The translations under genes and the position numbers were made by a program. This document shows, piece after piece, positions 8,757-49,282 of a stretch of 64,000 nucleotides of DNA. Source of the stretch: Flavobacterium sp. N1994 (GTDB lineage: Bacteria > Bacteroidota > Bacteroidia > Flavobacteriales > Flavobacteriaceae); contig NZ_CP109999.1 of NCBI RefSeq assembly GCF_025947145.1, positions 434,001 through 498,000 on the forward strand, given 5' to 3'. Every line of letters starts with the position of its first letter. Within the stretch, counting starts at the first letter, position 1. Below the pieces are notes generated by a model, which searched no databases, was not told the DNA's origin, and saw nothing but the letters and a program-made list of their open reading frames with translations.

Positions 8757-8764
8757 AAGTAAAC

Positions 8765-8783
8765 TTGATTATAATCAAAAATA
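8765..8783 (-). promoter_or_regulatory. Promoter and 14-bp palindromic operator for the GH92-GH127 operon
   Basis: On the minus strand TATTTTTG (8776-8783) matches the -7 consensus. Immediately downstream, covering the expected start site, is the perfect palindrome TTGATTATAATCAA (8765-8778). Its position suggests a repressor or activator site, perhaps for the divergent AraC protein, although AraC sites are usually direct repeats. Confidence 0.5.
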
Positions 8784-8883
8784 AGTTTTTTAACCGCCAG
8801 TAAATAGTACAAAAAATGAAAATAATAATACTATATTGTTTAGTTTTGAGGTAATAATCCAATTTCACAACAAATAAGGTGCT

Positions 8884-9726: not shown

Positions 9727-9730
9727 AAAA

Positions 9731-10474: not shown

Positions 10475-10499
10475 AAGTGTAATTTTTTTTAAGAAGTAG

Positions 10500-10507
10500 C
10501 AAAAATA
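10500..10507 (-). promoter_or_regulatory. -7 box for the DUF4197 gene
   Basis: Minus-strand TATTTTTG is an exact TAnnTTTG match, 26 bases before the start codon at 10474. No convincing -33 element was found. Confidence 0.45.
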
Positions 10508-10523
10508 AGGCCAAAAAATAATT

Positions 10524-11378: not shown

Positions 11379-11407
11379 TTGATAATAAAGTAGCTATTTC
11401 TTAAATT

Positions 11408-11415
11408 CAAATCTA
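11408..11415 (-). promoter_or_regulatory. -7 box for purU
   Basis: Minus-strand TAGATTTG matches TAnnTTTG, giving a 5' leader of roughly 25 nt before the purU ATG at 11378. Confidence 0.45.
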
Positions 11416-11530
11416 AACTTAATTTGATTAGTTTTTTAGTTAAAACTTATTTTTATGTTTTGTTTCATTTAATAGGCGTTTTTTTGAAAAATCCGTAAAT
11501 TGCGTCCTCAAAATACACACTTATTTAACA

Positions 11531-14500: not shown

Positions 14501-14956
14501 ATTATAGAAGAACTAACTGATTTAGTAGAAGACGCCGTATTACAAGAATTCGACCGCATCACAGAACGCGGTGGAGTGCTAGGCGCCATGGAAACCATGT
14601 ACCAAAGAAGTAAAATACAAGAAGAAAGTTTGTATTACGAAACCTTAAAACACACAGGGGAATTCCCAATCATTGGAGTAAACACTTTCCTAAGTTCTAA
14701 AGGCTCTCCAACGGTCTTACCAGCCGAAGTAATTCGTGCCACTGAAGAAGAGAAACAATTCCAAATCCAAACCTTACACAACCTCCACAAAGCCAATGGT
14801 GACAAAGAAAAGGAACAAATAGAACTGCTTCAAAACGCCGCCATCAAAAACGAAAACATTTTTGAACTCCTAATGGATGCTACTAAATATTGTTCGTTGG
14901 GGCAAATCACTGCTGGACTATTTGAAGTAGGAGGGCAGTATAGAAGAAATATGTAA
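11531..14956 (+). CDS. icmF: Fused B12-dependent acyl-CoA mutase with GTPase chaperone (IcmF, isobutyryl-CoA mutase type)
   Basis: A 1141-residue cytoplasmic enzyme that interconverts branched and linear acyl-CoAs using adenosylcobalamin. The domain order is that of IcmF. First is a B12-binding domain (about 1-150, with the DGH motif at 23-25 and His25 as cobalt ligand). Next is a G3E-type GTPase (Walker A near 200-211, NKFD near 350) acting as cofactor-loading chaperone, then a linker, then the mutase barrel (about 520-1141). Methylmalonyl-CoA mutase uses a Tyr and an Arg to hold the carboxylate, whereas IcmF has Phe and Gln. The motif equivalent to VRNT reads AQNT (Gln790), and Phe591 in YPFKRE fits the other site. 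I therefore reject methylmalonyl-CoA mutase. A segment of about 80 residues (roughly 705-785) is longer than in the canonical mutase. Confidence 0.9.
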
Positions 14957-15000
14957 GCAGGCACTGTTTTCCAACAAAGTTGGGGACTTAGTGTTCGCTT

Positions 15001-15058
15001 ATCCCGATGAATATCGGGATCTATAGAAAAAAACCTCACTGCTATGTGAGGTTTTTTT
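15001..15058 (+). terminator. Two hairpins, the second a strong terminator, after icmF
   Basis: ATCCCGAT and ATCGGGAT form a perfect hairpin at 15001-15020. It is followed by AACCTCAC and GTGAGGTT flanked by seven A and seven T at 15027-15058. The second is a classical intrinsic terminator that works in both directions between icmF and the convergent DUF4139 gene. Confidence 0.85.
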
Positions 15059-15060
15059 GT

Positions 15061-16917
15061 TTATAAATTTATGGTTTTATTCTTTGGATATTTAACCTGA
15101 TATCCCAATTGTTTTTTGACAGCTTGTTTTGATGGAATAGGTAACTGCCAATATAAAATCCCTGTTTTTTCATCATATGTAGCCCCATCAATATTTTCTT
15201 TTTCTACTTTGATTTCTTTATTTTCACTTATTGGAATGCGATCAAAGATTTTTACACTAATATCATTTGGTTTATTATTTCTTGTAGTGATTTCATAATT
15301 ACGGTCTATGATTCTTGTACCACCCAAAAATGATTTGTCTTTAGTGTTATTTAATTGTTTGCGTTCAATAATTAAATTGCTATCAACTCCCATTGAAATA
15401 ACTAATTCTTCCTCGGTTTGATAAGGATTAATATAAGTAGTTCCTGCATAACTTCCTTCTGTATATATACTGGCATCTCCAGGTAATAAATCGTATTTGT
15501 TCCAATCTTTTACTTTAGCTGTCAAGAATACATTTTCACTCAATACGGGTGCCGAATAATATTCAAACTCGGCTGGAATGATAAAATTATCAATTTCAAT
15601 TATAGAGGGGGTATCAAGTGAAGGAATAGAATAATTCTTTTTTATTTTAAAAGTTACACTATTCATAATAATTTCTTTTTCATCACCTGAACCAGTTGTT
15701 ATTACTTCTTTTTTAGCCTCAATTTCATCTGATTCGATGTCTGATTTTTTATATGCCATAACAACTACTTCTTGTAGTTTAGCTCCATCTTCTTTCAGAA
15801 CAACATTCATATTGCCACTATATATAGGGATGGTCTTAGTTTCCATACCAATAAAAGAAAACTCCAATTCTTTACCATTAGGTATCTTTAAAGAATATCT
15901 TCCATTGAAATCGGTTTGCGTTCCTATGTTAGTTCCTTTTATTAGTACATTTACTCCAGGTATAGGACCCGATTTGTCTGTGACAATTCCGGAAACTTCT
16001 TTAACCATAGGGTTGTAAACATAATTTTCTCGATCATTATCTTTACTTCTTTGGTAAGCATAAGGATTGATATAGTTTAAATATTGAGGTTCTAAATTAG
16101 GTTTATCATTATTGTAATTAGGATTACCCGTTGACAAGGTTAATTTGATATCATTCCAATCTTCTCCTGAATTCTGATATACTTGTGCTTTATAAGCAAA
16201 TTGCAAAGCATCTTTAGAATTCTTGGCTTTTATTTCATACGATGGAACCCAACCCGATCCAGTCACAATATATTTAAGTATTAAATTGAGTGCAATGGCT
16301 TCATTAGGATTGTCCAATTTCACAATGATTTCCCCTTTTTGTTCATAAGCATCTCCAGTCATTTTCTGAAAATCTTGTTGCATAGCTTTTACATCAGAGT
16401 TCAAAAGTTGTATTTTTTCATTAGTATCATAAATTTCCATTTTGATTATTGGAACTCTTTCTCTGTAATGCTTAGAATGAGATATTATTTTGTCGATTGT
16501 TGCTGCCTGTTGATTACTCCCTAAATTTTTATTTAGTGATAATATTGATTCTTCTTCTTCAAGCCCTTTGATATTATTTTGTAATATGGCTATTTCTCTA
16601 AGTTTAGCATTTATTTGATTTTTTAAATTTTTAATTTTATCAGTCAACTCTCTTTTAGGAAATGAATTTACTTCAAAACCTATAGAAAGAATAGAAACCT
16701 CTTTTAATCCGCTAATTTGTATAGTGTTTTGAGTAACAAACTGAGATACATCAGTGATTCTTAATACAGAACTTCCTTTTGGAATAGTAGCCGAAACATC
16801 AGAAGTTATTTGTGCTCCATTGGTATAAACAATTACCTCTCTTGGTGTGGCTTTAGTTTTAAGTTCAGTGGCAAAAGCAACAGATGAACATAAGAGGAAT
16901 ATAATGATTTTTTTCAT
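15061..16917 (-). CDS. DUF4139 / MuiA-like protein with inserted carboxypeptidase-regulatory-like domain
   Basis: A 618-residue exported protein. It has a signal peptide (IIIFLLCSSVAFATE), the DUF4140 N-terminal domain (REVIVYTNGAQITSDVSATIPKG), a coiled coil around 95-185, and a C-terminal DUF4139 domain ending in GYQVKYP. Between them, at roughly 300-395, lies a beta-sandwich of CarboxypepD_reg-like type: VSGIVTDKSGPIPGVNVLIKG, then TQTDFNGRYSL, ending in LQEVVVMAY. Such a domain and ending are normally found at the front of SusC/TonB-dependent receptors. I chose ATG 16917 because an upstream in-frame start at 16953 overlaps a -7 box. Family function is unknown (mucoidy inhibitor homologues). 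Monocistronic. Confidence 0.85.
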   Translation of the reverse strand: MKKIIIFLLCSSVAFATELKTKATPREVIVYTNGAQITSDVSATIPKGSSVLRITDVSQFVTQNTIQISGLKEVSILSIGFEVNSFPKRELTDKIKNLKNQINAKLREIAILQNNIKGLEEEESILSLNKNLGSNQQAATIDKIISHSKHYRERVPIIKMEIYDTNEKIQLLNSDVKAMQQDFQKMTGDAYEQKGEIIVKLDNPNEAIALNLILKYIVTGSGWVPSYEIKAKNSKDALQFAYKAQVYQNSGEDWNDIKLTLSTGNPNYNNDKPNLEPQYLNYINPYAYQRSKDNDRENYVYNPMVKEVSGIVTDKSGPIPGVNVLIKGTNIGTQTDFNGRYSLKIPNGKELEFSFIGMETKTIPIYSGNMNVVLKEDGAKLQEVVVMAYKKSDIESDEIEAKKEVITTGSGDEKEIIMNSVTFKIKKNYSIPSLDTPSIIEIDNFIIPAEFEYYSAPVLSENVFLTAKVKDWNKYDLLPGDASIYTEGSYAGTTYINPYQTEEELVISMGVDSNLIIERKQLNNTKDKSFLGGTRIIDRNYEITTRNNKPNDISVKIFDRIPISENKEIKVEKENIDGATYDEKTGILYWQLPIPSKQAVKKQLGYQVKYPKNKTINL

Positions 16918-36856: not shown

Positions 36857-37882
36857 TTATTTATCAGAAACACATCGAAAACCTATATGCTCCATTCCAG
36901 TATCTGGAGTTTCTTTCATACGGCGTGCATTTCTATATCCAGAACAATAGCCATCATTACATAAAAATGAGCCACCACGAATGGTATGTTTTTGTGCTGA
37001 AGTATCATCGGGATCATATCCTTTAGTAGGACCTTTTGGGTTTTTAATCCCTCTGGAAACAGTTGTATAATAACTAGCATCATACCAATCTTCGCACCAT
37101 TCCCAAACATTGCCGGCCATATCATAAAGACCATAGCCATTAGGGGCAAATGATTCAACAGGAGCTAATTTCAAGAAAGTATCTTCGTTAGTATTCTTAA
37201 TTGGGAAATTGCCTTGCCAACTATTGGCTTTAGGCTTACCTTGATTAATAGGTTCATTTCCCCATGTATAGATTTTATTTTTGAGTTTACCTCGAGCAGC
37301 ATATTCCCATTCGGCTTCAGTAGGTAAACGTTTGTTTGCCCATTTACAATAAGCTTGAGTATCATCCCAAGAGATTTGCACTACAGGATAATTCTCTTTA
37401 CCTATGATTGTTGATTGTGGACCTTCGGGGTGTTTCCAATCGGCTCCAGGCACCATCTTCCACCAATAGTCATTATCATTGTCTGGAATTTGAAAAACCA
37501 AGGCAGCTGGTTGTAATTTACTCTCTGGTGGTTTAGCAGTATTGAGCGGCAGTTGTTTTTTTAGTTCTTCCCAATCTATATTTTTCTCAGCTGTAGTAAC
37601 ATAATGAGTAGCGTTAATAAATTCTGTAAATTGAGCATTTGTCACCTCCGTGCAGTCCATCCAAAAGCCATCTAAAGTTACTTTGTGTTTAGGAAATTCA
37701 TCTGGAAAAGCTTGCTTATTATCGCCACCCATTTCAAATTCACCCCCAGGAATAAAGACCATGTTTTGGTGAGAGGAGGAAGTTTTATGTTTTGTAGAAT
37801 TGTATACGTCAGTTTTGGTTGACTTGTTGAGTAAACCCATTAGAGATAAAACAGTAATAATTACTAGGGAGTAATGCTTCAT
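36857..37882 (-). CDS. Formylglycine-generating enzyme (sulfatase-modifying, SUMF1-type), exported
   Basis: Converts the active-site Cys of a sulfatase to formylglycine. The 341-residue protein has an N-terminal hydrophobic segment (LVIITVLSLMGLLN) that looks like a signal peptide or anchor. The FGE-sulfatase domain opens with MVFIPGGEFEMGGDN and continues through RLPTEAEWEYAARG and MAGNVWEWCEDWY. The two copper-binding catalytic cysteines of true FGE occur as Cys308-x4-Cys313 in GGSFLCNDGYCSGYRNAR. SUMF1-like proteins without this pair are not sulfatase activators, so this one probably is. It starts 8 bases after the sulfatase stop, so activator and client are adjacent. Copper dependence is known for the family. 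Confidence 0.93.
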   Translation of the reverse strand: MKHYSLVIITVLSLMGLLNKSTKTDVYNSTKHKTSSSHQNMVFIPGGEFEMGGDNKQAFPDEFPKHKVTLDGFWMDCTEVTNAQFTEFINATHYVTTAEKNIDWEELKKQLPLNTAKPPESKLQPAALVFQIPDNDNDYWWKMVPGADWKHPEGPQSTIIGKENYPVVQISWDDTQAYCKWANKRLPTEAEWEYAARGKLKNKIYTWGNEPINQGKPKANSWQGNFPIKNTNEDTFLKLAPVESFAPNGYGLYDMAGNVWEWCEDWYDASYYTTVSRGIKNPKGPTKGYDPDDTSAQKHTIRGGSFLCNDGYCSGYRNARRMKETPDTGMEHIGFRCVSDK

Positions 37883-37890
37883 ATTCTTAA

Positions 37891-39483
37891 TTATTCTTTA
37901 ATAATTTTGAAGACTTTGTTTTGGGTAATAAGTTTTACTAAATACGCTCCCGATGCTAAAGCAGAGAAGTCTTGATTAGATAAATCTTTACCCTCTTTGA
38001 TTTTTTCTCCTTTAATGCTATACAATTCATAAGTGTCTTCGTTGGAAATAGTATTTATAATTATGTTATTTTTAAATGGATTTTGAATTACAAATATTTC
38101 GTTTGTATTCAAAAAGGAATCAGTACTTAAAGCCGTACAAGTAATTCCGCTTCCTACTAAAGTAGCCATTTCATTGCATAAATAATTATAATTGGCAATA
38201 TCTGTTGCTGTCATACTAGTTACTAATAAATTATTAGTTTCGCTAGCATCGAGTGTCAGATTGAAGAACTTTTCTGTACCATTTGCCAATTTTAATAATT
38301 TATAATCAGCGTTACGAATAGCTTTTCCATCAGAAGCTAATGGAGTATTTCTGAATACTTCAGAGAATGCCCATGGTCTGGTAGTTGTAGCTGTATTAGT
38401 TATAATAGGCATCAAGCTATGGCTATCAACTGTAGTAGTTGGAATTTGGTTTTGCCAATTGGTATCTCCAAACATTTCTAAAACGGTAGCAAAAATATCA
38501 GCCGTATTTACCATGGCATCGCTAGTTCTATTTGGGTTAACTACATCAGGTCCAGAAACTATAAAAGGGACGGTTATTCCTCCTTGGTAAACACTCCCTT
38601 TCGCTGGATTGGATTGCGCTACATAAGAGTCATCACCATTATCACCAATAAAAATAAAATCGGTGTTATCCCATTTCCCTATACTGATTAAATAATCAAA
38701 AAAACGACCTATTTCGTTATCCATAGCTTCTACCATTGCTTGAAAATAAGGAGTGGGATTAGCTGTTATGTCTGCTTGAACTCCAGTTAATCCTGTATTC
38801 GTAATTAAACTAGCTGGAGGTAATTGATAAGGTGTATGTGGGGCATTAAAAGCAAGCCATATAAAAAATGGTTTTGTCGATGGTTGGTTATTAAGGTAAG
38901 CAATAGCATTATTTACATTTTCGGTAGTAGCATAGTTGGTACATGTAGAACTTACTCCGTTGGTAATTTTGGTCCAATTGTAGTATCCATTTGCTTGTTG
39001 ACCGGGTTGCCCTAAAGCTCCAGTAAGACTGCCTTCAAAATGATCAAACCCCATGGTATTTGGATAACTATATCCAACGGGTGCAAAAGAGGTTAGGTGC
39101 CATTTACCAAATAAGGCTTTGGAAATACCATTAGGGTTATAAATGTTTAATACTTTAGGGATTATGTTTTCTGATAAACTTAATTTGGTGTTACTTCCAT
39201 CAACGACATCTCCAACTCCAGTTCTAAAACTATAGCGTCCAGTTAACATTCCGGCACGAGTAGGGGAGCATAATGGATTGGCCCATGCGTTATTAAAAAG
39301 AATACCTTTATTAAGTAATCTTCTAACATTAGTAAGATGTACTGTATTGGTGGCATGATCTGGATAGATATCACAAAATTCTTTTCCTAAATCATCAGCA
39401 ATTATTACAACTACATTACGTTGTGCATTTATTTGAAGTGAAAGCAATAGTAAAAAAATAATTTTTATGCATTGATTTTTCAT
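37891..39483 (-). CDS. T9SS-secreted sulfatase (formylglycine type)
   Basis: A 530-residue alkaline-phosphatase-fold sulfatase. It has a signal peptide (LLLLSLQINAQ) and the first metal site IIADDLG. The sulfatase signature CSPTRAGMLTGR carries Cys72, the residue that becomes formylglycine. Further metal residues follow (FIGDNGDD, GKWHL). The C-terminal ~70 residues are a type IX sorting domain (IQNPFKNNIIIN to GAYLVKLITQNKVFKIIKE), so it should be secreted and perhaps attached to the cell surface. The formylglycine enzyme follows after 8 bases. A terminator hairpin lies just upstream, with only 15 bases between it and this ATG, so expression probably depends on read-through from the copper operon. 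Substrate is likely a sulfated glycan, unknown. Confidence 0.93.
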   Translation of the reverse strand: MKNQCIKIIFLLLLSLQINAQRNVVVIIADDLGKEFCDIYPDHATNTVHLTNVRRLLNKGILFNNAWANPLCSPTRAGMLTGRYSFRTGVGDVVDGSNTKLSLSENIIPKVLNIYNPNGISKALFGKWHLTSFAPVGYSYPNTMGFDHFEGSLTGALGQPGQQANGYYNWTKITNGVSSTCTNYATTENVNNAIAYLNNQPSTKPFFIWLAFNAPHTPYQLPPASLITNTGLTGVQADITANPTPYFQAMVEAMDNEIGRFFDYLISIGKWDNTDFIFIGDNGDDSYVAQSNPAKGSVYQGGITVPFIVSGPDVVNPNRTSDAMVNTADIFATVLEMFGDTNWQNQIPTTTVDSHSLMPIITNTATTTRPWAFSEVFRNTPLASDGKAIRNADYKLLKLANGTEKFFNLTLDASETNNLLVTSMTATDIANYNYLCNEMATLVGSGITCTALSTDSFLNTNEIFVIQNPFKNNIIINTISNEDTYELYSIKGEKIKEGKDLSNQDFSALASGAYLVKLITQNKVFKIIKE

Positions 39484-39498
39484 ATAGGTGAAATTAAT

Positions 39499-39532
39499 AA
39501 AAAAAGGTTTACTACTATGAATAAACCTTTTT
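39499..39532 (-). terminator. Internal terminator between the YHYH gene and the sulfatase gene
   Basis: AAAAAGGTTTA (39501-39511) and TAAACCTTTTT (39522-39532) pair around a 10-base loop, with more A to the left, giving a T-run on the minus strand. It ends transcription after the YHYH gene but lies only 15 bases before the sulfatase start, which leaves no room for a downstream promoter. Confidence 0.75.
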
Positions 39533-39556: not shown

Positions 39557-40896
39557 CTACTTATTAATTATGACTTTAACTGTTTTAACATTCTTTCCAT
39601 CAGTCACTTTTACAAAATAAATACCATTATAAACGGTATCAGTTTCGATAATAGACAATGTACTTCCTTGCAAAATTTTAGATGATTTTACTATCTGACC
39701 TAGCTCGTTTACCAGATAAACGTCCATATCATTTTCAGCCATTGGAGTTTGTATAGCAATAAAGTCTGATGCAGGATTTGGTGCAATTACCACTTTAAAA
39801 TCAGAATTTTGAACAGCATTAGTTGCTAAAGTTGTGGTTCCGCTAGGGACACTTGTTACAGTTGAAACCGTTATATTTCCATAAAACGTTGGTCCCACTA
39901 CATAAGGATAGGTTGATTTATGATTAGCATCAACGGTGGCAAAATAGCAGTAAATACCAGCAGGATATTCAGGAGTTACACAAAAACGACCATTGTGTGC
40001 ATCTAAATAGGTTGGGTCACTAGGATGTGCCACATATTCGTAGTCTTCTCTAAAATAACCATTAAAAAAAGTTTGAGTTCCAACAACTGCATTAATAGCT
40101 GGACCATTTGTTCTGGTTGTATTGGTTCGAAGTTGGTAACTAGATTTCATACGATCTATAGCTCCAGTTCCATCAGTATTGGTATATCCGTATGCACCAT
40201 AAATAGGAAAACCATCATAGGCAAAACCCAATAAAGGCGAATGTTGTGACGGATTAATCACATACAAACCATCTGATGGATATAAATCGCATACATTAGA
40301 GGATACTACTAAATCTAAATTGAATGCGCTTGGATTTTGGTGATGATGATAATTCCCCATAGCCGGATGCGCTTTAGCACAATCAAAACCAGCACGTTCT
40401 GCTGGAATTGCATCTCTATTCCAAGCTTGTGTAGCCGTTGGTCCCCGGGACAAGGAGAATTTCCAGGACCACCACATAAAGCACTTGTAGCATTGTTCCA
40501 AGCTACTCCATCTCTGTAATCAAATAATGCTACTCCGTTTTTAAAAACGCCTATATTTCCTCCTGTTGTAGCAACTGTTCCCGTGCCTTGTACTGGAGCT
40601 AATGGAATTCTAAATATTTTATTTTGGGCTGTGGCTAAGGAAGGATTACCATCTTGAAAAGGGCCTGTAATATAGGCTGGAATTCCAGTTGCCGAAATAT
40701 AAGCATAGGTTGTATTGTATTGTACTAATTGAACATTTGCCTGAACTGCATCTGTAATAGGAGTTGAGTTTCCTGCAACATAATGACGACCAGTAATTCC
40801 AGTGGTGTTAATCAACCAAGAAATTATAGCTGGATTAGTTTGTGCGGATAAAATTCCGTTTAACATTAATAAACTTAAGAGTACTACTTTTTTCAT
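39557..40896 (-). pseudogene. YHYH-domain T9SS protein, broken by a 1-base frameshift
   Basis: Two overlapping frames join to one protein. The first (from ATG 40896) has a signal peptide (LLMLNGILSAQ) and a beta-rich region ending near GGPGNSPCPG. The second continues from GPTATQAWNRDAIPAERAGFD. They meet at the minus-strand run CCCGGGGACC (plus 40443-40449), which needs one more G. The second part has HPAMGNYHHHQNP, a variant of the YHYH motif, then DLYPSD and GFAYDGFPIYGAYG, and a T9SS tail ending VKVTDGKNVKTVKVIINK. YHYH proteins are His-rich secreted proteins often near copper oxidases; function unknown. A homopolymer error in the sequence is a real possibility. Confidence 0.85.
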
Positions 40897-40902
40897 AACT
40901 AA

Positions 40903-41547
40903 TTATTTTAATAATTGGGGTTTCATTTTTTGTTGCTCACCTCTGTAAAATATTCTACAACCAAAAGATTCTGTTTTGGCGTTAGTAACTGATTTGTTCT
41001 GTAAAAGCTCGTTAACAGCTTCTGCTAAATAAGGTTTTGCATTACCAGCATCACCTGCATTATCATCGATTGCTCCCTCGTATTTGATATCGTAATTGCC
41101 AGATTTGTTTTTCCAAATGACAAAAGCTTGGGGAGTATGTGTAGCATTAAATTGTTTGGCCACTACTTGTAATTTATCCTGTAAATAAGGAAAATTGAGT
41201 TTGTCAGCCTTTGCTTTTTTCTGCATCAAAGCAAAAGATTCTTCTTTATAAGCTAAAGTATCCATAGCATCAATAGCTAATAAATAAACTCCCTTTGTTT
41301 TGTATTGTGCATTTAATTTGTTCAATCGATCTGAATAGAATTTGGCCATCGGGCATTTATTACAAGTAAATATAACCATAAACCCTTTGGCATTCCTGTA
41401 ACTTGACAGTGAGATGCTTTTATTATCTACATTTTTCAAGCTAAAGTTTTTGATGGATTTTGAATTTAAAGTATCACCAATAGTAGCAAAACTCAAGTAG
41501 AGTACTGCAAGCAAAATGGCAATTAATAAATATTCAATTCGATTCAT
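40903..41547 (-). CDS. Membrane-anchored redoxin (thioredoxin-fold, CxxC)
   Basis: A 214-residue protein with one N-terminal helix (EYLLIAILLAVLYLSFATI) and a periplasmic thioredoxin/AhpC-like domain. The redox motif is Cys62-Asn-Lys-Cys65 in FTCNKCPMAKFYSDR, followed by the cis-Pro segment THTPQAFVIW. A conserved GCRIFY sits near the C-terminus. This CxxCP form is known from redoxins near cytochrome c genes and resembles SCO-like proteins in placement, although I cannot assign metal binding. It lies 3 bases after the multicopper oxidase and 6 before the YHYH gene, so it is a core member of the operon, perhaps reducing cysteines or handing over copper. Confidence 0.85.
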   Translation of the reverse strand: MNRIEYLLIAILLAVLYLSFATIGDTLNSKSIKNFSLKNVDNKSISLSSYRNAKGFMVIFTCNKCPMAKFYSDRLNKLNAQYKTKGVYLLAIDAMDTLAYKEESFALMQKKAKADKLNFPYLQDKLQVVAKQFNATHTPQAFVIWKNKSGNYDIKYEGAIDDNAGDAGNAKPYLAEAVNELLQNKSVTNAKTESFGCRIFYRGEQQKMKPQLLK

Positions 41548-41550
41548 AAT

Positions 41551-43263
41551 TTACTTTTTAATGAATTTTTTAGTAGTAACCGATTTCGTTTGTTTGTCCA
41601 TCATTTGTACAATATAAATTCCAGAAGCCAATGACGAAATATCAATTCCGTTTTGCCATTGTGGCTGTGGTAACATCATAGCAGTCCTTCCTTCAATAGT
41701 AGTGATAGTCAAATAATAGATTTCAGTAGAAGCATCACTAAGATTAATATACAACTTGTATTGAGCTGGATTTGGGTACAAATTAAAATCGGTGTTTAAG
41801 GTATTCTGATTAGTCGCTAATGTGCTAGTAACAATGAATTGTCCCATCATTCCTCCATCTTCATGTCCAGCAAAATGACAGTGGTACATATAAGGATGCG
41901 TAACATCGGCATCAGCAAAATCATCAAACTTAGCAACAAAAGTTACCGATTCATTTCTTGGTAAATAGAAAGTATCTTTCCAACCATTTTCATGAGTTCC
42001 GACACTAGTAGCTAAACCATTTCGAGCTACAATTTTAAACTCGATGTCATGAATATGAAAGGAGTGACCGAAGATATTATTATTGGTAACGGTCCATTTT
42101 TCAATATCATTAAGGTTAACTGTTTTATCGATATAATCATAAACAAATGGGTGATTGTCCAAAGAAAATGGAGTAGGTCCTTGACCTCCTGTTACTGTTA
42201 AGGCTCTAGTAACCGTTGCATTAGCAGCAGTCCAGTAAGTATTGTTAATTAATGTTGAAGGTACAGCAGTAATTGGAGTTGTTGCAGTCGTTGTAGCGGC
42301 TACATTAATATGCAAAACAGTGAAATCAATATTGTTCAACAAACTTCCGAATTGTCCGCTTGTATTAGGTTCACCACCAGGAAAACCTAAAGTTTGTCCA
42401 GAATTATAGGCTTTTAAATCTACTGAAGAACCCACTGTATCGTTTCCTAAATTCACCATAATTTCAACACGCTCTCCCACCATAAGTTTAACTCGACTTA
42501 CAGCCACTGGGGCATTTAGTAAACCACCATCATTGGCAATGATATAGAAAGTTCTGTTATCACTGAAACCCAAATTATAACCACGTTCAATTTCACCATT
42601 TAAGATTCGCATACGAACATATTGTTTTGGTATACTGATTTGTCCGTTTGGAGTCCCATTGGTTAACATATAATCGCCATACACTCGGGTTGAAGTAGGA
42701 GGTGAGTCAAATTGATTAGCGGTGGTATAACTTCTGCTAGTTAGTGCTAAAACGATATCATCCACTCCGTAAGTTCTGGGTAACGCTAATGCGGCTTCTG
42801 CGGGATCTTTTACGATGATAAAACCTCCAACTCCTTTTGTGATTTGTTCTTGTGTGGTTTCATGTAAGTGAGGATGGTACCAAAGGGTTGAAGCTTGATT
42901 CATTACTGTCCAATAAGGTTGCCAAAGTGTACCAGCGGGAATAATTTGATGAGGACCACCATCCATTACTGCTGGAAGATGCATTCCATGCCAATGTAAT
43001 GTAGTGGATTCATTTAAATTATTGGTTACATTCATATGAACTTCATCTCCTTTATTGATGATTAAAGTTGGTCCCCAAAAACTTTCATTATTAATAGATC
43101 CTGTTACCGTCAAATTACCAGTACGTAGTTGTTTGGTTGATTCATGAATGTTTAAATTAAAAGTAGTTCCATATAAAGCCTCAGGCATTGCAATGGTATT
43201 GTATTGGGCATGAAGTAGCGATATACTACATATGGCAAATAAAGTAATGAAAGATTTTTTCAT
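41551..43263 (-). CDS. T9SS-secreted multicopper oxidase
   Basis: A 570-residue laccase/CueO-like oxidase. It has a signal peptide (FAICSISLLHAQ) and three cupredoxin domains. The trinuclear copper ligands are in LHWHGMHLP and WYHPHLHE. The HSFHIHDIEF and MYHCHFAGHEDGGMMG blocks supply the type 1 and type 3 sites (His-Cys-His, with Met as axial ligand). The C-terminal ~75 residues are a type IX sorting tail (FNLYPNPAQYKLYIN to GIYIVQMMDKQTKSVTTKKFIKK), so it is secreted through the outer membrane. It probably oxidises Cu(I), Fe(II) or phenols. It lies between the diheme protein (67 bases upstream) and the redoxin. Confidence 0.94.
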   Translation of the reverse strand: MKKSFITLFAICSISLLHAQYNTIAMPEALYGTTFNLNIHESTKQLRTGNLTVTGSINNESFWGPTLIINKGDEVHMNVTNNLNESTTLHWHGMHLPAVMDGGPHQIIPAGTLWQPYWTVMNQASTLWYHPHLHETTQEQITKGVGGFIIVKDPAEAALALPRTYGVDDIVLALTSRSYTTANQFDSPPTSTRVYGDYMLTNGTPNGQISIPKQYVRMRILNGEIERGYNLGFSDNRTFYIIANDGGLLNAPVAVSRVKLMVGERVEIMVNLGNDTVGSSVDLKAYNSGQTLGFPGGEPNTSGQFGSLLNNIDFTVLHINVAATTTATTPITAVPSTLINNTYWTAANATVTRALTVTGGQGPTPFSLDNHPFVYDYIDKTVNLNDIEKWTVTNNNIFGHSFHIHDIEFKIVARNGLATSVGTHENGWKDTFYLPRNESVTFVAKFDDFADADVTHPYMYHCHFAGHEDGGMMGQFIVTSTLATNQNTLNTDFNLYPNPAQYKLYINLSDASTEIYYLTITTIEGRTAMMLPQPQWQNGIDISSLASGIYIVQMMDKQTKSVTTKKFIKK

Positions 43264-43330
43264 ATTTTTTGGGTTGGTTATTCTTTGTTAGACGTACTTA
43301 CTTTTATATTCTTGCGTAGGGAATTAAAAT

Positions 43331-44353
43331 TTATTCTTTTGGGAAACCGAATCGTTTGTCAAAAAGAAATTCTTTATCGGTTAAGGTTTGTAAAAACGCT
43401 ACTAAATCTACTCTATCATTATCAGAAAGCATCATAGGTTCTGCTAATTCTTTGGGTAAACTTTTATCATGTCCTAAGGAATTGTAATGTTTAATCACTT
43501 CAGTTAAGGTTTTAAATCGTCCATCGTGCATGTAGGGAAATGTGAATTGGATGTTTCGCAATGTAGGTGTTCTAAAGCGCAAATAATCTTCGGGTTTGTT
43601 CGTGATTTTTATTCGTCCTAAATCATTTAAAGTTTCATCAATTACTAAACCATTTTTCTCAAACCTATCATCACTGAAAAGAGGTTCTTTATGACAGGAA
43701 GCACAATGGGTTTTGAATAAAGCATAACCCTGTTGTTCTTGTGAATTGAATTGTTCTTCTTTTCGGATCACTTTATCATACTTTGAATTAGACGATTTTA
43801 GCATCACCATGAATTGCGCTAATGCTTTAAGTATACGTTGGCTAGTAACTTTATCATCTCCAAAAGCTTTGGTAAACAAGATTCGGTATTTTTCACTTTT
43901 TTGCAATTTGTTTACAACGTGATCTAAACTTTCGTCCATTTCTAGAGGATTCGTTATTGGATTGATAGGCTGCACTTCTAAATTATTGACGCCTCCATCC
44001 CACATAAAGTCTTTATTCCAGGCTAAATTGATAAGTGCCATCGAATTTCGAGTACCAATTTTACCTTCTATCCCATGACTTAATTGATGGTCGACGTGCG
44101 TAAATCCGGTTTGTTGTAAATGACAACTTTGACACGAAATAGTACTATCTCTAGAAATAATAGGATCGTAAAATAAATGTCGGCCCAACTGAAATCCCTC
44201 TTCAGTTAATGGATTTCGATTAAAATCATATCTAGGTTTTGGCCAACCTTTTGGAACTTCTAAATATAAAGGTGTGGTGAATTGATTGGAAAATGCCAAG
44301 CAAAGTAGGAGTGTTATTCCTAATAATGAATAGTATTTCCAATGGATTCTCAT
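43331..44353 (-). CDS. Diheme cytochrome c peroxidase / MbnH (MauG-like)
   Basis: A 340-residue exported diheme protein. It has an N-terminal hydrophobic segment (YYSLLGITLLLCLAF), a first heme motif Cys74-Gln-Ser-Cys77-His78 and a second at Cys217-Ala-Ser-Cys220-His221. Those two sites and the overall length match the bacterial cytochrome c peroxidase/MauG family. The gene overlaps mbnP by the four bases ATGA. In the methanobactin systems MbnH partners MbnP and oxidises a tryptophan of it to kynurenine. The location makes MbnH the better reading here than ordinary hydrogen peroxide scavenging. Heme attachment would need the CcsBA system, encoded at 19.0-22.2 kb. Confidence 0.88.
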   Translation of the reverse strand: MRIHWKYYSLLGITLLLCLAFSNQFTTPLYLEVPKGWPKPRYDFNRNPLTEEGFQLGRHLFYDPIISRDSTISCQSCHLQQTGFTHVDHQLSHGIEGKIGTRNSMALINLAWNKDFMWDGGVNNLEVQPINPITNPLEMDESLDHVVNKLQKSEKYRILFTKAFGDDKVTSQRILKALAQFMVMLKSSNSKYDKVIRKEEQFNSQEQQGYALFKTHCASCHKEPLFSDDRFEKNGLVIDETLNDLGRIKITNKPEDYLRFRTPTLRNIQFTFPYMHDGRFKTLTEVIKHYNSLGHDKSLPKELAEPMMLSDNDRVDLVAFLQTLTDKEFLFDKRFGFPKE

Positions 44354-45045
44354 TCTATATAAAACATGTTAGTAGCGTAATTAGCCATCTGCATGGCTTG
44401 CTTACCGGGAATCATCACGCTATTGATTTCAGATAATTTTATGGTAGAAAAGAATTTCTCTAAATCTATGATAACATCAAGTTGCTCTACTTTTTTATTG
44501 TAAACCAATTCGATCTTTCGCATAGCATTATAAGGTTTCAAATAACCCCCAAGATGAAACTGAAAAGCATTCTTTCGTGTTTTACAGCTTGAGCTTTTTC
44601 CTTCAATTTTCATATTGATATAACCGCTTTGCCAAGCCCAATACATGCCTTTAGATGGATCTAATTCGCCACTCAAGGCTCCAGATGTATTCGTTAGACT
44701 GTCTATACCAATGGTAAAAATTACTTTGCTTATGGTTTTATCACTGTTAGTAGTTATTGGAAAAATCAATGAACTAGGATTTTCAAAATCAATCAAATGA
44801 TAACTATCTTTTTGTTTGTAAATTGATTGATCAGTGTAATGAATTTCGATATTGGAGATGTAACATTTGAAGGTTTCAAGTGTTATAGTATCATTATTAG
44901 TTGTGATATATTGTTGGTTTAAAGCTAAAGGGAATTGTTTGTATTTTACTTTGAAATTGAGATTCAATGAATCTGTTTTGCTTTGAGAATTACTCTTAAA
45001 ACAAAATAATAAAAGTAAAATAGAAAGAACTCCTTTTTTAATCAT
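44350..45045 (-). CDS. mbnP: MbnP-family copper-binding protein
   Basis: A 231-residue exported protein. It has a signal peptide (VLSILLLLFCFKSNSQS) and a beta-rich domain with the family hallmark GMYWAWQSGYINMKIEG at residues 133-149. It also has the QFHLGGY segment and a final VMIPGKQAMQMANYATNMF. In characterised MbnP, a tryptophan in this MxWxWxxGY block (candidates Trp136 and Trp138) is oxidised to kynurenine by MbnH and contributes to copper binding. That chemistry is from the literature; the sequence shows the motif and the adjacent MbnH gene. I chose ATG 45045 rather than 45072; it overlaps the sensor gene by 8 bases, so the two are coupled. Confidence 0.88.
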   Translation of the reverse strand: MIKKGVLSILLLLFCFKSNSQSKTDSLNLNFKVKYKQFPLALNQQYITTNNDTITLETFKCYISNIEIHYTDQSIYKQKDSYHLIDFENPSSLIFPITTNSDKTISKVIFTIGIDSLTNTSGALSGELDPSKGMYWAWQSGYINMKIEGKSSSCKTRKNAFQFHLGGYLKPYNAMRKIELVYNKKVEQLDVIIDLEKFFSTIKLSEINSVMIPGKQAMQMANYATNMFYIE

Positions 45046-45526
45046 GTCTTGGTTCGTGTGGCTTTGGTGCAAAAATTCTTGACAATTCTTCTGTCAAATC
45101 GTTGAAATCTTCCAATTGTTCTTTATGACATATTTTTTTAATGTCTTCGAAATGTTTGAAATGGGTTTGTTCAATTTGATTTTGATAGGAGTTTAAAACT
45201 GCAATTAAACTGTCTTTTGTTTTCACATTGACTTCAGAATTTGATAACTGAGAATACAATTCATTTTTAGTTTGTCGAATATTGCTATCTAGTCTTTCAA
45301 TTTCACTATGATGCCACTGAATAATTTTATCATATTCTTTTTGTTGATTGGCATCAAAATGTAATTTGTTGATTATGATTTCTTTTGGTTTATGACCTTC
45401 ACGAGGAGGCCCGTCAAAAGGAGGTTTATGACCTCTTGGTCCATTTAAAAATAGAAAACCTAAAGTTGCCAAATTAAGCAACAATAATCCGATGATACTG
45501 ATCGTTAAAAGTTTAGTTTTTTCCAT
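45038..45526 (-). CDS. Membrane-tethered periplasmic metal sensor (CnrX/Spy-like)
   Basis: A 162-residue protein with one N-terminal helix (LTISIIGLLLLNLATLGFLFL) followed by a helical periplasmic domain. It is His-rich: HKPPFDGPPREGHKP just after the helix, then WHHSEIE, HFKHFEDIKKICH and a final KPHEPRHD. The alpha-helical hairpin with FDANQQKEYDKII and EQLEDFNDLTEEL resembles the CpxP/Spy/CnrX group, in which CnrX binds metal and controls release of an ECF sigma factor by a small anti-sigma. The gene order sigma, anti-sigma, sensor here is that arrangement. Which metal it binds cannot be told; copper is the best guess because of the downstream genes. Confidence 0.78.
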   Translation of the reverse strand: MEKTKLLTISIIGLLLLNLATLGFLFLNGPRGHKPPFDGPPREGHKPKEIIINKLHFDANQQKEYDKIIQWHHSEIERLDSNIRQTKNELYSQLSNSEVNVKTKDSLIAVLNSYQNQIEQTHFKHFEDIKKICHKEQLEDFNDLTEELSRIFAPKPHEPRHD

Positions 45527-45531
45527 AGTTA

Positions 45532-45801
45532 TTAATATAACTGATTGCTTTGATTTAATGTTGATTCGAGATAGGAAGTGGAGGTTTGTGTTTTGTCTTT
45601 GGTTTTAGTTTTCAAAACGGTAATATTAATCATAACTAAAACGAGTATAGAGGCGGCTACTAGCCAAACTGTTTTTGGAGAAACTCTATTTTGCAGGTTT
45701 ATCCTCTGTTGGATTTTTGAAAATAAATCATCACTTGGAGAAACTTGAGTCATTCCGTTAGTGCTGTTTAGTATTTTTTCTATCCAATTATTTGTTTCCA
45801 T
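45532..45801 (-). CDS. Small one-helix anti-sigma-like membrane protein
   Basis: An 89-residue protein with a polar cytoplasmic N-terminus of about 45 residues (MTQVSPSDDLFSKIQQRINLQNRV), one transmembrane helix (VWLVAASILVLVMINITVL) and a short periplasmic tail. This is the size and layout of CnrY-like anti-sigma factors. It follows the ECF sigma gene by 23 bases and precedes the sensor gene by 5. There is no zinc-binding motif, so the sigma contact would be direct. Recognition is by context more than by sequence. Confidence 0.75.
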   Translation of the reverse strand: METNNWIEKILNSTNGMTQVSPSDDLFSKIQQRINLQNRVSPKTVWLVAASILVLVMINITVLKTKTKDKTQTSTSYLESTLNQSNQLY

Positions 45802-45824
45802 AGTTGCTTAGACGAATGTTAATT

Positions 45825-46367
45825 TTATTTCTTGCGATAATTTTTAAATTTTTCAGCTAATTTTTCTTGAAGAGCACCTTTTGCCCTGAAAATCAATGAT
45901 TCAACAGATGAAATACTGAGTTGCATAATCTCGGCAATTTCTGGATTACTTAATCCATCTAGCTTAGATAGGAGGAAAGCGGTTTTCTGATTTTCGGTTA
46001 ACGAATTAATTACTTCAAATAATATAGCGGCATCTTCTTTGTTTTCCATTAAAATCCCAGGATGTTCAAAAGTAGCGGTGTTTAAATACTCCTGTTCGTT
46101 TTGACTTTTCTTCCCAAAAATAAAAAAGCGCTTTTGACTGTTTTTCTTTTTGATAAAATCCAAACATTGATTGATAGTAATTCGGTAAATCCAAGTTTTA
46201 TAGGAAGATTTTTGATTGAAGTTTTCTAAGGAGTAATAGACTTTTACAAAAACATCTTGTGTAACTTCTTCAGCATCTTCAAGATTTTGCAAATAATTCA
46301 ACGCCACATTGAACACCAGTATACGATACTCATGGTATAATTTTTCAAAATGGGTTTGGTTAATCAT
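45825..46367 (-). CDS. ECF-type RNA polymerase sigma factor
   Basis: A 180-residue sigma factor with region 2 (HEYRILVFNVALNYLQNLEDAEEVTQDVFVKVYYSLENF) and region 4 (LSKLDGLSNPEIAEIMQLSISSVESLIFRAKGALQEKL). It is the first gene of a leftward run that continues with a small anti-sigma, a metal-sensor-like protein and copper-related proteins. In CnrH-type systems the sigma factor also drives its own operon, so this operon is probably self-activated by metal. A divergent fabG with its own promoter lies 119 bases away. Confidence 0.93.
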   Translation of the reverse strand: MINQTHFEKLYHEYRILVFNVALNYLQNLEDAEEVTQDVFVKVYYSLENFNQKSSYKTWIYRITINQCLDFIKKKNSQKRFFIFGKKSQNEQEYLNTATFEHPGILMENKEDAAILFEVINSLTENQKTAFLLSKLDGLSNPEIAEIMQLSISSVESLIFRAKGALQEKLAEKFKNYRKK

Positions 46368-46451: not shown

Positions 46452-46459
46452 TATATTTG
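46452..46459 (+). promoter_or_regulatory. -7 box for fabG
   Basis: TATATTTG matches TAnnTTTG, 27 bases before ATG 46487. An in-frame upstream start at 46457 lies inside it and is not used. Confidence 0.5.
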
Positions 46460-46486
46460 GGCTATCAAATTAAACGCTATTATAAC

Positions 46487-47233
46487 ATGAAATTATTAGA
46501 AGGAAAAGTAGCCATTATAACTGGCGCAAGTAGAGGAATAGGAAGCGGAATTGCGAAAGTGTTTGCTCAACATGGAGCTAATGTAGCATTTACCTATAGT
46601 TCCTCTGCCGAATCAGCTTTAGCTTTAGAAAATGAATTGACGGCTATGGGAATCAAAGCCAAAGGATATAAATCAAATGCAGCTGATTTTAATGAAGCAC
46701 AAAAATTAGTTGATGATGTTTTGGCTGAGTTTGGAAATGTTGATGTGTTAATCAACAACGCTGGAATCACTAAAGACAATCTTCTAATGCGTATGAGTGA
46801 AGAGGATTTTGATAAAGTAATTGAAATCAATTTGAAATCTGTTTTCAATATGACAAAAGCCGTTCAGAAAATTATGTTGAAAAACCGTAAAGGTTCTATC
46901 GTCAATATGAGTTCGGTTGTTGGCGTTAAAGGAAATGCTGGTCAAGCCAATTATGCTGCTTCAAAAGCTGGAATGATTGGTTTTACCAAATCAGTAGCTT
47001 TAGAATTAGGATCAAGAAATATTCGTTGTAATGCCATTGCACCCGGATTTATTGAAACTGAAATGACGGCCAAATTAAACGAAGATGTGGTTCAAGGTTG
47101 GAGAGATTCTATTCCGTTAAAACGTGGCGGAACTCCAGAAGATGTGGCAAATGCCTGTCTTTTCTTTGCTTCCGATATGAGTGCCTATGTTTCTGGGCAA
47201 GTCTTGAATGTTTGCGGTGGAATGTTAACCTAA
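46487..47233 (+). CDS. fabG: 3-oxoacyl-ACP reductase
   Basis: Short-chain dehydrogenase that reduces 3-oxoacyl-ACP in fatty acid elongation. The 248-residue protein has the NADPH-binding GASRGIGSGIAKVF, NNAG, the catalytic Ser in NMSSVVG and the Tyr-x3-Lys pair in NYAASKAGM. The C-terminal SGQVLNVCGGM is typical of FabG. It is followed after 21 bases by a VWA-like membrane protein, an arrangement common in this group. Other SDR reductases look similar, but full-length agreement with FabG is good. Confidence 0.92.
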   Translation: MKLLEGKVAIITGASRGIGSGIAKVFAQHGANVAFTYSSSAESALALENELTAMGIKAKGYKSNAADFNEAQKLVDDVLAEFGNVDVLINNAGITKDNLLMRMSEEDFDKVIEINLKSVFNMTKAVQKIMLKNRKGSIVNMSSVVGVKGNAGQANYAASKAGMIGFTKSVALELGSRNIRCNAIAPGFIETEMTAKLNEDVVQGWRDSIPLKRGGTPEDVANACLFFASDMSAYVSGQVLNVCGGMLT

Positions 47234-47254
47234 TATTTTAAAAAATTTCATTTA

Positions 47255-49282
47255 ATGAATACCACAACAATCCTGTTATTACTTGTATCAATACTAATTG
47301 CTGCTGGTGTTTCATTTTACCACTATTTTTATAAAGTCAAAAGCAAATCCAAAGTGAATTTGTTTTTGGCTTTTTTGCGTTTCTTTAGTGTTTTTGGTTT
47401 GCTATTATTGTTAATCAATCCAGTCATTTCCAGAAAAACAATTGAAACGATCAAAACGCCTTTACCAATAGTTATTGATAATTCATCATCGATAAAAGAT
47501 TTGAAAGCTGACAAATCAGCCTTGGAAGTATTTGAGCAATTGAAAAACAACGCTGCCCTAGCCGATAAGTTTGACTTGCAGTCCTATCAATTTGATGCCG
47601 ACTTTTTACCTTCTGACACTATAAATTTTAAAGGAAAGCAAACTAGTATAGATGTTGTTGCCAAAAACTTAAAGAACATATATAAAAATCAACATTTTCC
47701 AACGGTTTTAATCTCAGATGGAAATCAGACATCAGGAGAAGATTATGTGTTTGGATTCAATCCAGACAATAAAGTTTATCCACTAGTAGTTGGTGATACA
47801 ACAACATATTTCGATTTAAAAGTGGCTCAGTTAAATGTCAACAAATATGCTTTTCATAAAAATAAATTTCCAGTAGAAGTATTTTTGAATTATTCTGGAA
47901 AAAAATCAATAAATGCTTCCTTTAAAATTACTCAAGGAAATACCGTTTTAAACGAACAAACTCTTGCATTTTCACCTACTAAAAAGTCAGCCACTATAAA
48001 TGTATTATTGCCGGCGGATAGAGTAGGGCTTCAAATTCTAAAAGCAAGTATAACTTCAAAAGAATCTGAGAAGAATACTTATAATAATGTCAAAAATTTT
48101 GCAGTAGAAGTAATTGATCAAAAAACAGAAGTCGCTTTAGTTTCTAGTTTTCCACATCCTGATTTAGGCGCTATCAAACGCAGTATTGAATCTAATGCAC
48201 AAAGAAAAGTAACTATCCTTAAACCTAATGAAATTAAATCTTTAAGCGATTATAATATTTTAATCTTATACCAACCCAACGGAACATTTAAATCTATATT
48301 TGATCAAAACGAAAATGCAAAAATCAATACTTGGATTATAACAGGGAATGATACCGATTTTAATTTCTTAAATCAAAATCAAAAGACTTTTGCTTTTAAA
48401 ATGACGGGGCAGAAAGAAGACTATTTGGCTTCTTTTGATTCGCAATTCAATCTCTTTGCTTTAGACAATATTGGATTTGAACAATTTCCACCAATAGAAA
48501 ATTCATTTGGGGCAATAACATCCTCAGGAAATGTAAACACTTTGTTAACATCAACGATTCGGAATATTGCCACTAATCAACCTTTGTTATCTTTTAGTGA
48601 GAATCGAGGCATAAGAAGCGCATTCTTATTTGGAGAAAATATTTGGAAATGGAGGGCAGAGAGTTATGTAAACAATAAAAGTTTTACAGATTTTGATATT
48701 TTCTTAGACAAAACCATTCAATATTTAGCCTCTAATAATGCTCGAAAGTCTTTGGTGGTTAATCATGAACGTTTTTATAATTCGGGAGAAGGAATTGAAA
48801 TAACGGCACAATACTTCAATAAAAATTATGAATTAGATGAAAAAGCACGTTTGACTATTTCTGCAACTAATTCTAAGACAAAACAAGTTAAAAATTACGA
48901 TTTACTTAGAGCTACAAATTCTTTTCAAGCTAATTTAGATGGACTATCAGCGGGAAATTATTCTTTTATGGTAAAAGAATTAAACTCTAATTCTTCTTAT
49001 AGCAGTAGTTTTGAAGTCTTGGATTTTGACATAGAAAAACAATTCGTAAATCCAGATTGGAATAAGCTGAATCAATTGGCTACTCAAACTCACGGAAAAG
49101 CTTTTCTACCTAATCAAGTGGATACTTTAGTGAAAGAACTTTTAGCAGATGACAGTTATAAAGCCATACAAAAAACAACAATCAAAAAATCACCTTTGAT
49201 CGATTGGATTTGGTTGCTAGTTTTGATATCGCTGTCCTTAGCAACTGAATGGTTTGTTAGAAAGTATAACGGATTATTATAG
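47255..49282 (+). CDS. VWA-like / BatA-type membrane protein
   Basis: A 675-residue inner-membrane protein. Two N-terminal helices (about 3-22 and 36-56) and one C-terminal helix (about 650-668, DWIWLLVLISLSLATEWFV) flank a long periplasmic region. That region has an opening PIVIDNSSSIKDLK (a VWA-like metal motif DxSxS), then TVLISDGNQTSGEDYVFG as in VWA domains, and two or three immunoglobulin-like parts rich in Asn and Lys. It may bind other envelope proteins. It follows fabG by 21 bases; the link to fatty acid synthesis is not obvious. Similar sequences are annotated as VWA domain proteins of unknown function. Confidence 0.8.
   Translation: MNTTTILLLLVSILIAAGVSFYHYFYKVKSKSKVNLFLAFLRFFSVFGLLLLLINPVISRKTIETIKTPLPIVIDNSSSIKDLKADKSALEVFEQLKNNAALADKFDLQSYQFDADFLPSDTINFKGKQTSIDVVAKNLKNIYKNQHFPTVLISDGNQTSGEDYVFGFNPDNKVYPLVVGDTTTYFDLKVAQLNVNKYAFHKNKFPVEVFLNYSGKKSINASFKITQGNTVLNEQTLAFSPTKKSATINVLLPADRVGLQILKASITSKESEKNTYNNVKNFAVEVIDQKTEVALVSSFPHPDLGAIKRSIESNAQRKVTILKPNEIKSLSDYNILILYQPNGTFKSIFDQNENAKINTWIITGNDTDFNFLNQNQKTFAFKMTGQKEDYLASFDSQFNLFALDNIGFEQFPPIENSFGAITSSGNVNTLLTSTIRNIATNQPLLSFSENRGIRSAFLFGENIWKWRAESYVNNKSFTDFDIFLDKTIQYLASNNARKSLVVNHERFYNSGEGIEITAQYFNKNYELDEKARLTISATNSKTKQVKNYDLLRATNSFQANLDGLSAGNYSFMVKELNSNSSYSSSFEVLDFDIEKQFVNPDWNKLNQLATQTHGKAFLPNQVDTLVKELLADDSYKAIQKTTIKKSPLIDWIWLLVLISLSLATEWFVRKYNGLL

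Follow-up and report, generated by a model that had tools for sequence, protein, structure and literature searches.

An ECF sigma factor, two promoter-like sites and an MbnP/MbnH gene module in Flavobacterium sp. N1994: a probable copper-responsive regulon

Which signal would switch on an MbnP/MbnH pair that stands behind its own regulators, and are the genes of such a module read together? The question is raised by a leftward gene row in a 64,000-nucleotide stretch of DNA from Flavobacterium sp. N1994 (the window), which covers positions 434001 to 498000 of a 3.35-Mb genome held in a single contig. The row encodes an extracytoplasmic function (ECF) sigma factor, an anti-sigma candidate and a tethered sensor (together, the trio), followed by MbnP, an MbnH-like diheme protein, a multicopper oxidase (MCO), a redoxin and a YHYH protein. 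An earlier note, made from the letters of the window, had described eight genes; their families and strand stood up to scrutiny, but the YHYH protein is not encoded in one frame. The ATGA overlap that it reported between mbnP and the diheme gene is present in the sequence, and tails of the type IX secretion system (T9SS; PF18962) were found, as it had said, on the MCO and on the C-terminal piece of the YHYH protein. The sensor gene overlaps mbnP, which starts at 45045, by 8 nt. We consider it probable that the row forms a regulon confined to one locus, in which the ECF sigma factor encoded there acts at two sites of a promoter-like element, and that it holds an MbnP/MbnH copper module induced by copper.

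The promoter-like element, CGCAAG-N16-CGTCTA, ties the predicted module parts together and had gone unseen in the earlier note. It was first noticed by side-by-side reading of sigma/anti-sigma junctions. Two copies are present in the window, at sites named P1 and P2, compared with none in 100 shuffles. The entire genome contains exactly these two, and a reversed control pattern does not occur in it.

Related loci were gathered by two routes. Eighty named loci came from a search with the MbnP of the window. The other 80 are stretches that flank the strongest PF20243 hits in the 299 family genomes scanned; 139 of these genomes had a hit, and by score the stretches cover roughly the upper half of the hits listed. 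Genes were annotated by profiles built from the named loci. Loci were split into classes A and B by MbnP score, not by neighbors, and most of the class A loci (80/87) had been collected with the MbnP of the window. The family-scan stretches comprised 6 class A loci, 73 class B loci and one locus (L131) without an MbnP call. The window was recovered again as L001. This duplicate was left out of the counts of synteny (whose 87 class A loci include the window once), of the element in 181 loci, of junctions and of the weight matrix after MbnH, and was included in residue conservation of MbnP and the diheme protein and in the distance count from the -10 box to the ATG. Some genomes or places are doubled (L015/L179, L026/L181, L045/L180, L053/L177 and L046/L199), and the counts are therefore not all independent. 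Our claims concern these gathered loci rather than the phylum at large.

A slightly wider form of the element gave 100 matches in the 181 loci, compared with 5.85 per shuffled set. Fifty-two sites lay before an anti-sigma gene, 26 before a YHYH gene, 6 before an MCO gene and 4 before genes for proteins of 752 to 754 residues, 3 of them in the cluster with a CotH representative; 12 lay elsewhere. The element was present at 53 of 69 trio junctions, in every case with a spacer of 16 (53/53). A weight matrix trained on junction sites only was applied to the stretch after MbnH at a 99% shuffle threshold. It recovered the element at 60 of the 92 class A loci and at none of the 72 class B loci, and 58 of the 92 class A stretches beat the best of 4,920 shuffles. 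The shuffles for both the pattern count and the matrix were first-order Markov resamplings. The -35 box is either CGCAAG or CGAAGG, and the variants agreed in all 23 loci in which both sites matched (23/23). The end of the -10 box lies exactly 7 nt ahead of the anti-sigma ATG in 35 of 58 genes with the element upstream (the window counted twice, as L001), so that the anti-sigma message is probably leaderless. RNA folding at P1 and P2 was in neither case better than that of shuffles. Ahead of sigma genes the element was seldom found: 5 of 59 upstream regions passed the threshold, and it was rejected as the promoter that drives sigma itself. A different site, AAACCTTT...GTCNAA, was found in 12 of these 59 regions (e.g., L042, L165 and L178; shuffle mean, 0.04) and is perhaps another promoter, that of the sigma gene.

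The element is also linked to the sensor across genomes. In a genus sample of 150 genomes, 40 contained a match to the sensor profile, 95 an MbnP match and 27 the strict element. The sensor was present in 26 of the 27 genomes with the strict element, compared with 40 of the whole sample of 150 (Fisher P = 6e-18). Most element sites (33/40) had a sensor gene no more than 3 kb away. Sensor genes were mostly neighbors of MbnP (33/40), and 33 of 109 MbnP matches stood beside a sensor. Two of the remaining seven sites (G312:C16 and G319:C160) lie on separate contigs, 28 and 39 nt before an MCO gene that is followed by redoxin and YHYH genes, which leaves 5 sites, compared with 20 matches when the reversed control was run on these 150 genomes. 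Nine class A loci carry the element without a local trio, and all nine genomes (9/9) hold the sensor elsewhere. At five of these nine remote trios (L185, L187, L188, L189 and L190), the element occupies the junction in the same -35 variant as at the MbnP locus. With the element at the MbnP locus and the trio elsewhere in the genome, the regulon can evidently be split over the genome.

Conserved synteny in relatives had been set beforehand as a check on the module, and it was found. Among class A loci with at least 2 kb of upstream sequence, sigma and sensor genes preceded MbnP in 46 of 75 and all three regulators did so in 42 of 75. Where at least 5.5 kb lay downstream, 63 of 64 loci had MbnH, 54 had YHYH and 8 had both MCO and redoxin. 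In class B, no locus had a sigma, anti-sigma or sensor gene (0/73) or YHYH (0/68), whereas MbnH was present in 67 of 68. Placed on a FastTree tree of MbnP, the neighbor label needed 5 changes, compared with 51 in shuffles; at 5 changes, class A MbnP was not taken as a single clade. As a separate observation, the class B pair stands beside SUF iron-sulfur genes in 27 loci grouped as SUF/c13 (L123, L128, L143, L152 and others), where Pfam matches of cluster representatives name Fe-S_biosyn, the SufBD core, an ABC ATPase and a class V aminotransferase. Six loci titled Nitrotoga, Rhizobium, Bifidobacterium, Chitinophaga or Bdellovibrio (L004, L011, L016, L032, L035 and L048) resemble Flavobacterium loci, and their titles may be wrong.

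Candidate residues of the MbnP/MbnH pair are conserved. The MbnP of the window, whose nearest named relatives are mostly Flavobacterium proteins, belongs to PF20243 and falls short of the WxW equivalog TIGR04052 (40 bits; cut-off, 140). It carries the WxW motif: all 81 class A proteins share W136, W138 and H164, and these positions are conserved at 99%, 86% and 99%, respectively, in 74 class B proteins. No convincing solved relative of MbnP was found by sequence. The diheme protein matches TIGR04039 (MbnH) best, at 230 bits with a cut-off of 363, and the MauG model at 189 bits with a cut-off of 444. Its relatives in the PDB include the peroxidases 1iqc (148 bits, over residues 52-299) and 3o5c (145 bits, over 52-325) as well as 6e1c (144 bits, over 31-338), titled 'Di-heme enzyme', which we take to be MbnH. 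A Met of 1iqc and 3o5c, presumably a heme axial ligand position, is replaced by Tyr in the alignments of both the window protein and 6e1c. With this Tyr and two CxxCH motifs, the protein is of the MbnH/MauG-like kind; among 78 class A diheme proteins, Tyr290 and both CxxCH motifs are invariant and W118 is conserved at 99%. In characterized MbnP/MbnH pairs, a Trp of MbnP becomes kynurenine.

Within the sensor, His72, His125 and Cys133 are invariant (alignment A1, 47 sequences), and 32 of these 47 proteins, the window included, match PF13801 at an E value of 0.01 or less. No convincing solved relative was found; the best profile match was Spy (3oeo; E = 0.14). The anti-sigma candidate matched no Pfam or NCBIfam model; it has 228 relatives at an E value of 0.001 or less, and no Pfam domain was found among the 120 listed. 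A paralogous sigma/anti-sigma/sensor trio occurs in the same genome (L171; C1:2339000-2356000, at about 7370-15283), together with genes for a T9SS metallophosphoesterase, a T9SS YHYH protein, an Lcl_C protein and a HupE/UreJ protein. On pMOL28 (L162:12905-13027), a 40-residue protein annotated as YHYH domain containing adjoins cnrY; it has no Pfam match.

Coordinates of the features are collected in Table 1.

Table 1. Genes, promoter-like sites and accessory features of the locus, in window positions
Feature	Position	Strand	Evidence and remarks
ECF sigma factor, 180 aa	45825..46367	-	PF04542, 65.7 bits; PF08281, 57.1 bits; kept beside sensor in relatives
Anti-sigma candidate, 89 aa	45532..45801	-	One membrane helix predicted by eye; place conserved
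Tethered sensor, Metal_resist-like	45038..45526	-	PF13801, 25.5 bits, under cut-off of 29.2
MbnP; W136, W138, H164	44350..45045	-	PF20243, 170 bits; cut-off, 27
MbnH-like diheme protein	43331..44353	-	CCP_MauG, 193 bits; CxxCH at 74-78 and 217-221; W118, Y290
MCO, CueO-like, T9SS tail	41551..43263	-	PF07732, PF07731, PF18962
Redoxin with CxxC	40903..41547	-	PF00578, 56.7 bits
YHYH protein, open reading frame with N piece	40315..40896	-	PF14240 positions 2-44, 23 bits, under cut-off of 25
YHYH protein, open reading frame with C piece and T9SS tail	39557..40501	-	PF14240, 161 bits (cut-off, 25); PF18962
P1, CGCAAG-N16-CGTCTA	45809..45836	-	Overlaps end of sigma gene; CGTCTA end to anti-sigma ATG, 7 nt
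P2, CGCAAG-N16-CGTCTA	43289..43316	-	Noncoding gap upstream of MCO; about 25 nt to MCO ATG
Terminator-like hairpin, 13 pairs, into U run	39501..39532	-	Between YHYH and sulfatase
Sulfatase, T9SS tailed, accessory	37891..39483	-	PF00884, 157 bits
Formylglycine-generating-enzyme family protein, accessory	36857..37882	-	PF03781, 267 bits

The YHYH frame of the window changes near residue 151. Residues 1-151 of the frame with the N piece match residues 1-151 of an intact relative, residues 20-314 of the frame with the C piece match its residues 152-458, and single-frame copies occur in relatives (alignment A3, 45 sequences). In Flavobacterium terrisoli (L008), all genes of the module are intact according to gene calls. 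In the window, the change may be either a sequencing error or a true break. Membership in PF14240 is carried by the C piece. No convincing solved relative of the YHYH protein was found by sequence or profile, the matches being to T9SS tails or weak, and we know of no function of YHYH proteins. Downstream, the region of the hairpin folds with a z score of -2.56 (3 of 200 shuffles were equally good); a G+C-based terminator scan did not report it, and scans of the region for sigma-70 promoters and terminators gave no clear excess over shuffles. Sulfatase and formylglycine-generating enzyme (FGE) genes, which lie past the coordinates that the earlier note had given, occur together only in the window and L022 among the gathered loci, and a sulfatase without FGE occurs in L077, L080 and L081. 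Aerobic FGE is copper dependent in characterized cases, which would fit the regulon, but these genes are rare at such loci.

Other arrangements were seen around the module. A second, longer diheme protein of about 392 to 399 residues follows YHYH in L003, L005, L008, L018, L023, L024, L029 and L076, loci without MCO and redoxin; a CCP_MauG match was noted in L003. In Flavobacterium paronense, whose whole copy is L012, a second contig (L036, 31.7 kb) carries the module again, inverted and for the most part broken, which is either a duplication or assembly noise. In the window, a dehydrogenase-like gene (FabG by eye, 248 residues from the ATG) and a gene for 675 residues occupy 46457-49282 and diverge from the module. 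Clusters of these two genes adjoin the module in many of the listed Flavobacterium loci, so that the module seems fixed in its chromosomal place.

How the locus would work, from the binding of sigma to the element through the metal and the direction of the response to all of the enzymology, is proposed here from sequence. The anti-sigma factor would keep sigma at the membrane. Binding of a soft metal (copper being the most likely) by the tethered sensor in the periplasm would then make the anti-sigma factor release sigma. Freed sigma would read CGCAAG-N16-CGTCTA at both sites. P1, inside the end of the sigma gene, would drive the genes for anti-sigma, sensor, MbnP and MbnH, so that the system would make its own brake, and P2, directly after the MbnH gene, would drive those for MCO, redoxin and YHYH. 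MbnH may oxidize W136 or W138 of MbnP to kynurenine and thereby create a copper site, while MCO would oxidize Cu(I) and the redoxin would keep copper-binding thiols reduced. The YHYH protein would be a metal-dependent protein outside the cell.

Copper is the most likely metal because three separate copper families recur at these loci, namely MbnP, an MCO whose best solved relatives are CueO-type copper oxidases, and SCO1, which is encoded beside the same trio in L053, L165, L168, L187, L194 and L199 (in L165, L168, L187 and L194 without MbnP in the stretch). Cys133 of the sensor would suit Cu(I). Since Cnr-kind tethered sensors release sigma upon metal binding, copper itself is the favored trigger.

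Several observations weigh against this reading. At the thresholds used, the element was missing from 16 of 69 trio junctions and from 32 of 92 class A stretches after MbnH; 13 of the 16 junctions show an altered form by eye, and 2 (L171 and L172) have another -35 box (TGCCAG-N16-CGTCTAA, in which the -10 box is shared), yet all 16 were counted as misses. The sensor was accompanied by no strict element in 14 of 40 genus genomes, 7 of 15 genomes of loci lacking both element and trio still hold a sensor match, and the pattern used did not find the element at 4 of 9 remote trio junctions. All six class A loci of the family scan have YHYH (L120, L122, L125, L126, L127 and L136; 6/6), but the trio and the element were found in only one of six (trio, L126), which makes YHYH a steady mark of class A MbnP and the trio a frequent addition. 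In 198 genomes of the phylum, a looser pattern, CGMARG-N16-CGTCTA, was at chance level (matches in 93 genomes) and by eye rarer than its reversed control; sites near a sensor match were limited to the genome of the window and G476, and the phylum-level pattern was not used as evidence. The sensor profile matched in 70 of these 198 genomes, mostly weakly, with 5 matches better than 1e-30. The gene row lacks a copper exporter, which is odd for a response to copper excess, a HupE/UreJ-family gene is found close to the paralogous trio of this genome, and the trio of L189 and L191 precedes Bax1-I, which has no tie to copper. The YHYH gene of the window is broken, at least as the sequence reads.

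The absence of an exporter and the recurrence of SCO1 would suit an alternative that differs in direction only, in which the same regulon answers copper shortage as an acquisition program. CueO-type oxidases are usually produced under copper excess, and a sensor of the Cnr kind acts upon binding of its metal, both of which speak against shortage as the signal. This alternative has a precedent in MopE and CorA, kynurenine copper proteins of analogous chemistry with diheme partners, which are copper repressed (PMC3912023). We regard it as rather unlikely. An oxidative or envelope stress response, with the diheme protein acting as a peroxidase and the sensor as a Spy/CpxP-like chaperone, would account for PDB peroxidase scores as high as that of MbnH and for the fact that, among solved structures, the sensor profile matched Spy best, albeit at the weak E value given above. 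The Tyr shared with 6e1c at the Met position of the peroxidases, the adjacency of MbnP to the diheme gene in nearly every case and the invariant His/His/Cys of the sensor make this explanation very improbable.

A true nickel/cobalt (or zinc) CnrYXH-type system, running copper-type genes by chance, is brought to mind by the three-part architecture, the weak resemblance of the sensor to Metal_resist, the 25% identity of sigma to CnrH and the HupE/UreJ neighbor of the paralogous trio. The earlier note had matched the regulators to a CnrH-CnrY-CnrX layout; the architecture is indeed the same, but the order differs and the homology of the smaller proteins had to be dropped. On pMOL28, the order is cnrY, cnrX, cnrH and then efflux genes, whereas in the window it is sigma, anti-sigma and sensor, and CBA efflux genes do not follow. 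CnrX itself scores 91 bits against PF13801, for which the window sensor stays under the cut-off, and comparison of the sensor profile with CnrX gave a probability of 2.8 and an E value of 0.016, not a significant relation. The anti-sigma candidate was not significantly related to CnrY by BLASTP (E = 2.5), and PF17524 matches CnrY (173 bits) but not the candidate. Together with the recurrent partners SCO1, MCO and MbnP, these results render a nickel/cobalt system improbable.

Under the preferred reading, that of a regulon induced by copper, a dedicated ECF regulon apparently joins MbnP/MbnH with YHYH and, variably, with the oxidase and redoxin, SCO1 or CotH. More tentatively, and with doubt prevailing, we propose a self-contained and modular copper circuit of Bacteroidota, in which a promoter lying inside the sigma gene, at its 3' end, would yield a leaderless brake, MbnP/MbnH would form a kynurenine-copper site, secreted YHYH proteins would be copper carriers or metal-dependent enzymes, and MCO with redoxin, SCO1 with a short YHYH protein, CotH or a second diheme protein would stand behind the same promoter or elsewhere. 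Once MbnP/MbnH and YHYH are assigned to a delimited regulon whose promoter is predicted, fusions to the two promoters could reveal their inducer. A sensor subclass with invariant His/His/Cys and a small anti-sigma candidate are named as well; a class I anti-sigma domain is reported near only 6% of ECF sigma factors in the phylum (PMC7406223).

No account of this regulon was found in the literature searched, where most subscription articles are missing and the chief MbnP/MbnH articles later than 2013 did not come up. The occurrence of MbnP/MbnH outside methanobactin loci, which the earlier note had stressed, is not itself new and was already described: the pair occurs far beyond methanobactin producers, under the heading 'mysterious partners', and some isolated pairs lie near FecIR-type sigma/anti-sigma genes and a TonB receptor (PMC3621798, 2013). 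No TonB receptor was present among the window genes scanned. The locus shares with the known pair (TIGR04052/TIGR04039; MopE/SACCP and CorA/CorB being analogous) an adjacent WxW MbnP-like protein and a MauG-like diheme protein, but both window proteins score under the equivalog cut-offs, and they are accompanied here by a different type of ECF trio and by YHYH and T9SS proteins. CorE of Myxococcus xanthus, a copper-dependent ECF sigma factor, likewise runs an MCO gene; its sensing relies on a Cys-rich tail of the sigma factor, and no anti-sigma factor is reported for it (PMC3107203 and PMC10141476). The 180-residue sigma factor of the window, in contrast, lacks a Cys-rich tail and has a separate sensor and, next to it, an anti-sigma candidate. 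CueO-type oxidases are the nearest solved structures to the window MCO, which differs in its T9SS tail and stays below the cut-off of NF008205 (326 bits; cut-off, 525). The YHYH protein shares the Pfam match of its family, for which domains in phage tails are predicted to be metal-dependent hydrolases (PMC7824862), and differs in standing in a metal-type regulon. By the tests run, the system is CnrYXH-like in its predicted working rather than a member of that group. With CnrYXH of Cupriavidus metallidurans, which responds to nickel and cobalt, it has in common an ECF sigma factor, a small one-helix anti-sigma factor (a candidate here) and a tethered periplasmic sensor, which in the window resembles Metal_resist weakly, but gene order and the lack of a significant relation of the two smaller regulators set it apart, and in place of an efflux pump its effectors are MbnP/MbnH, MCO and YHYH.

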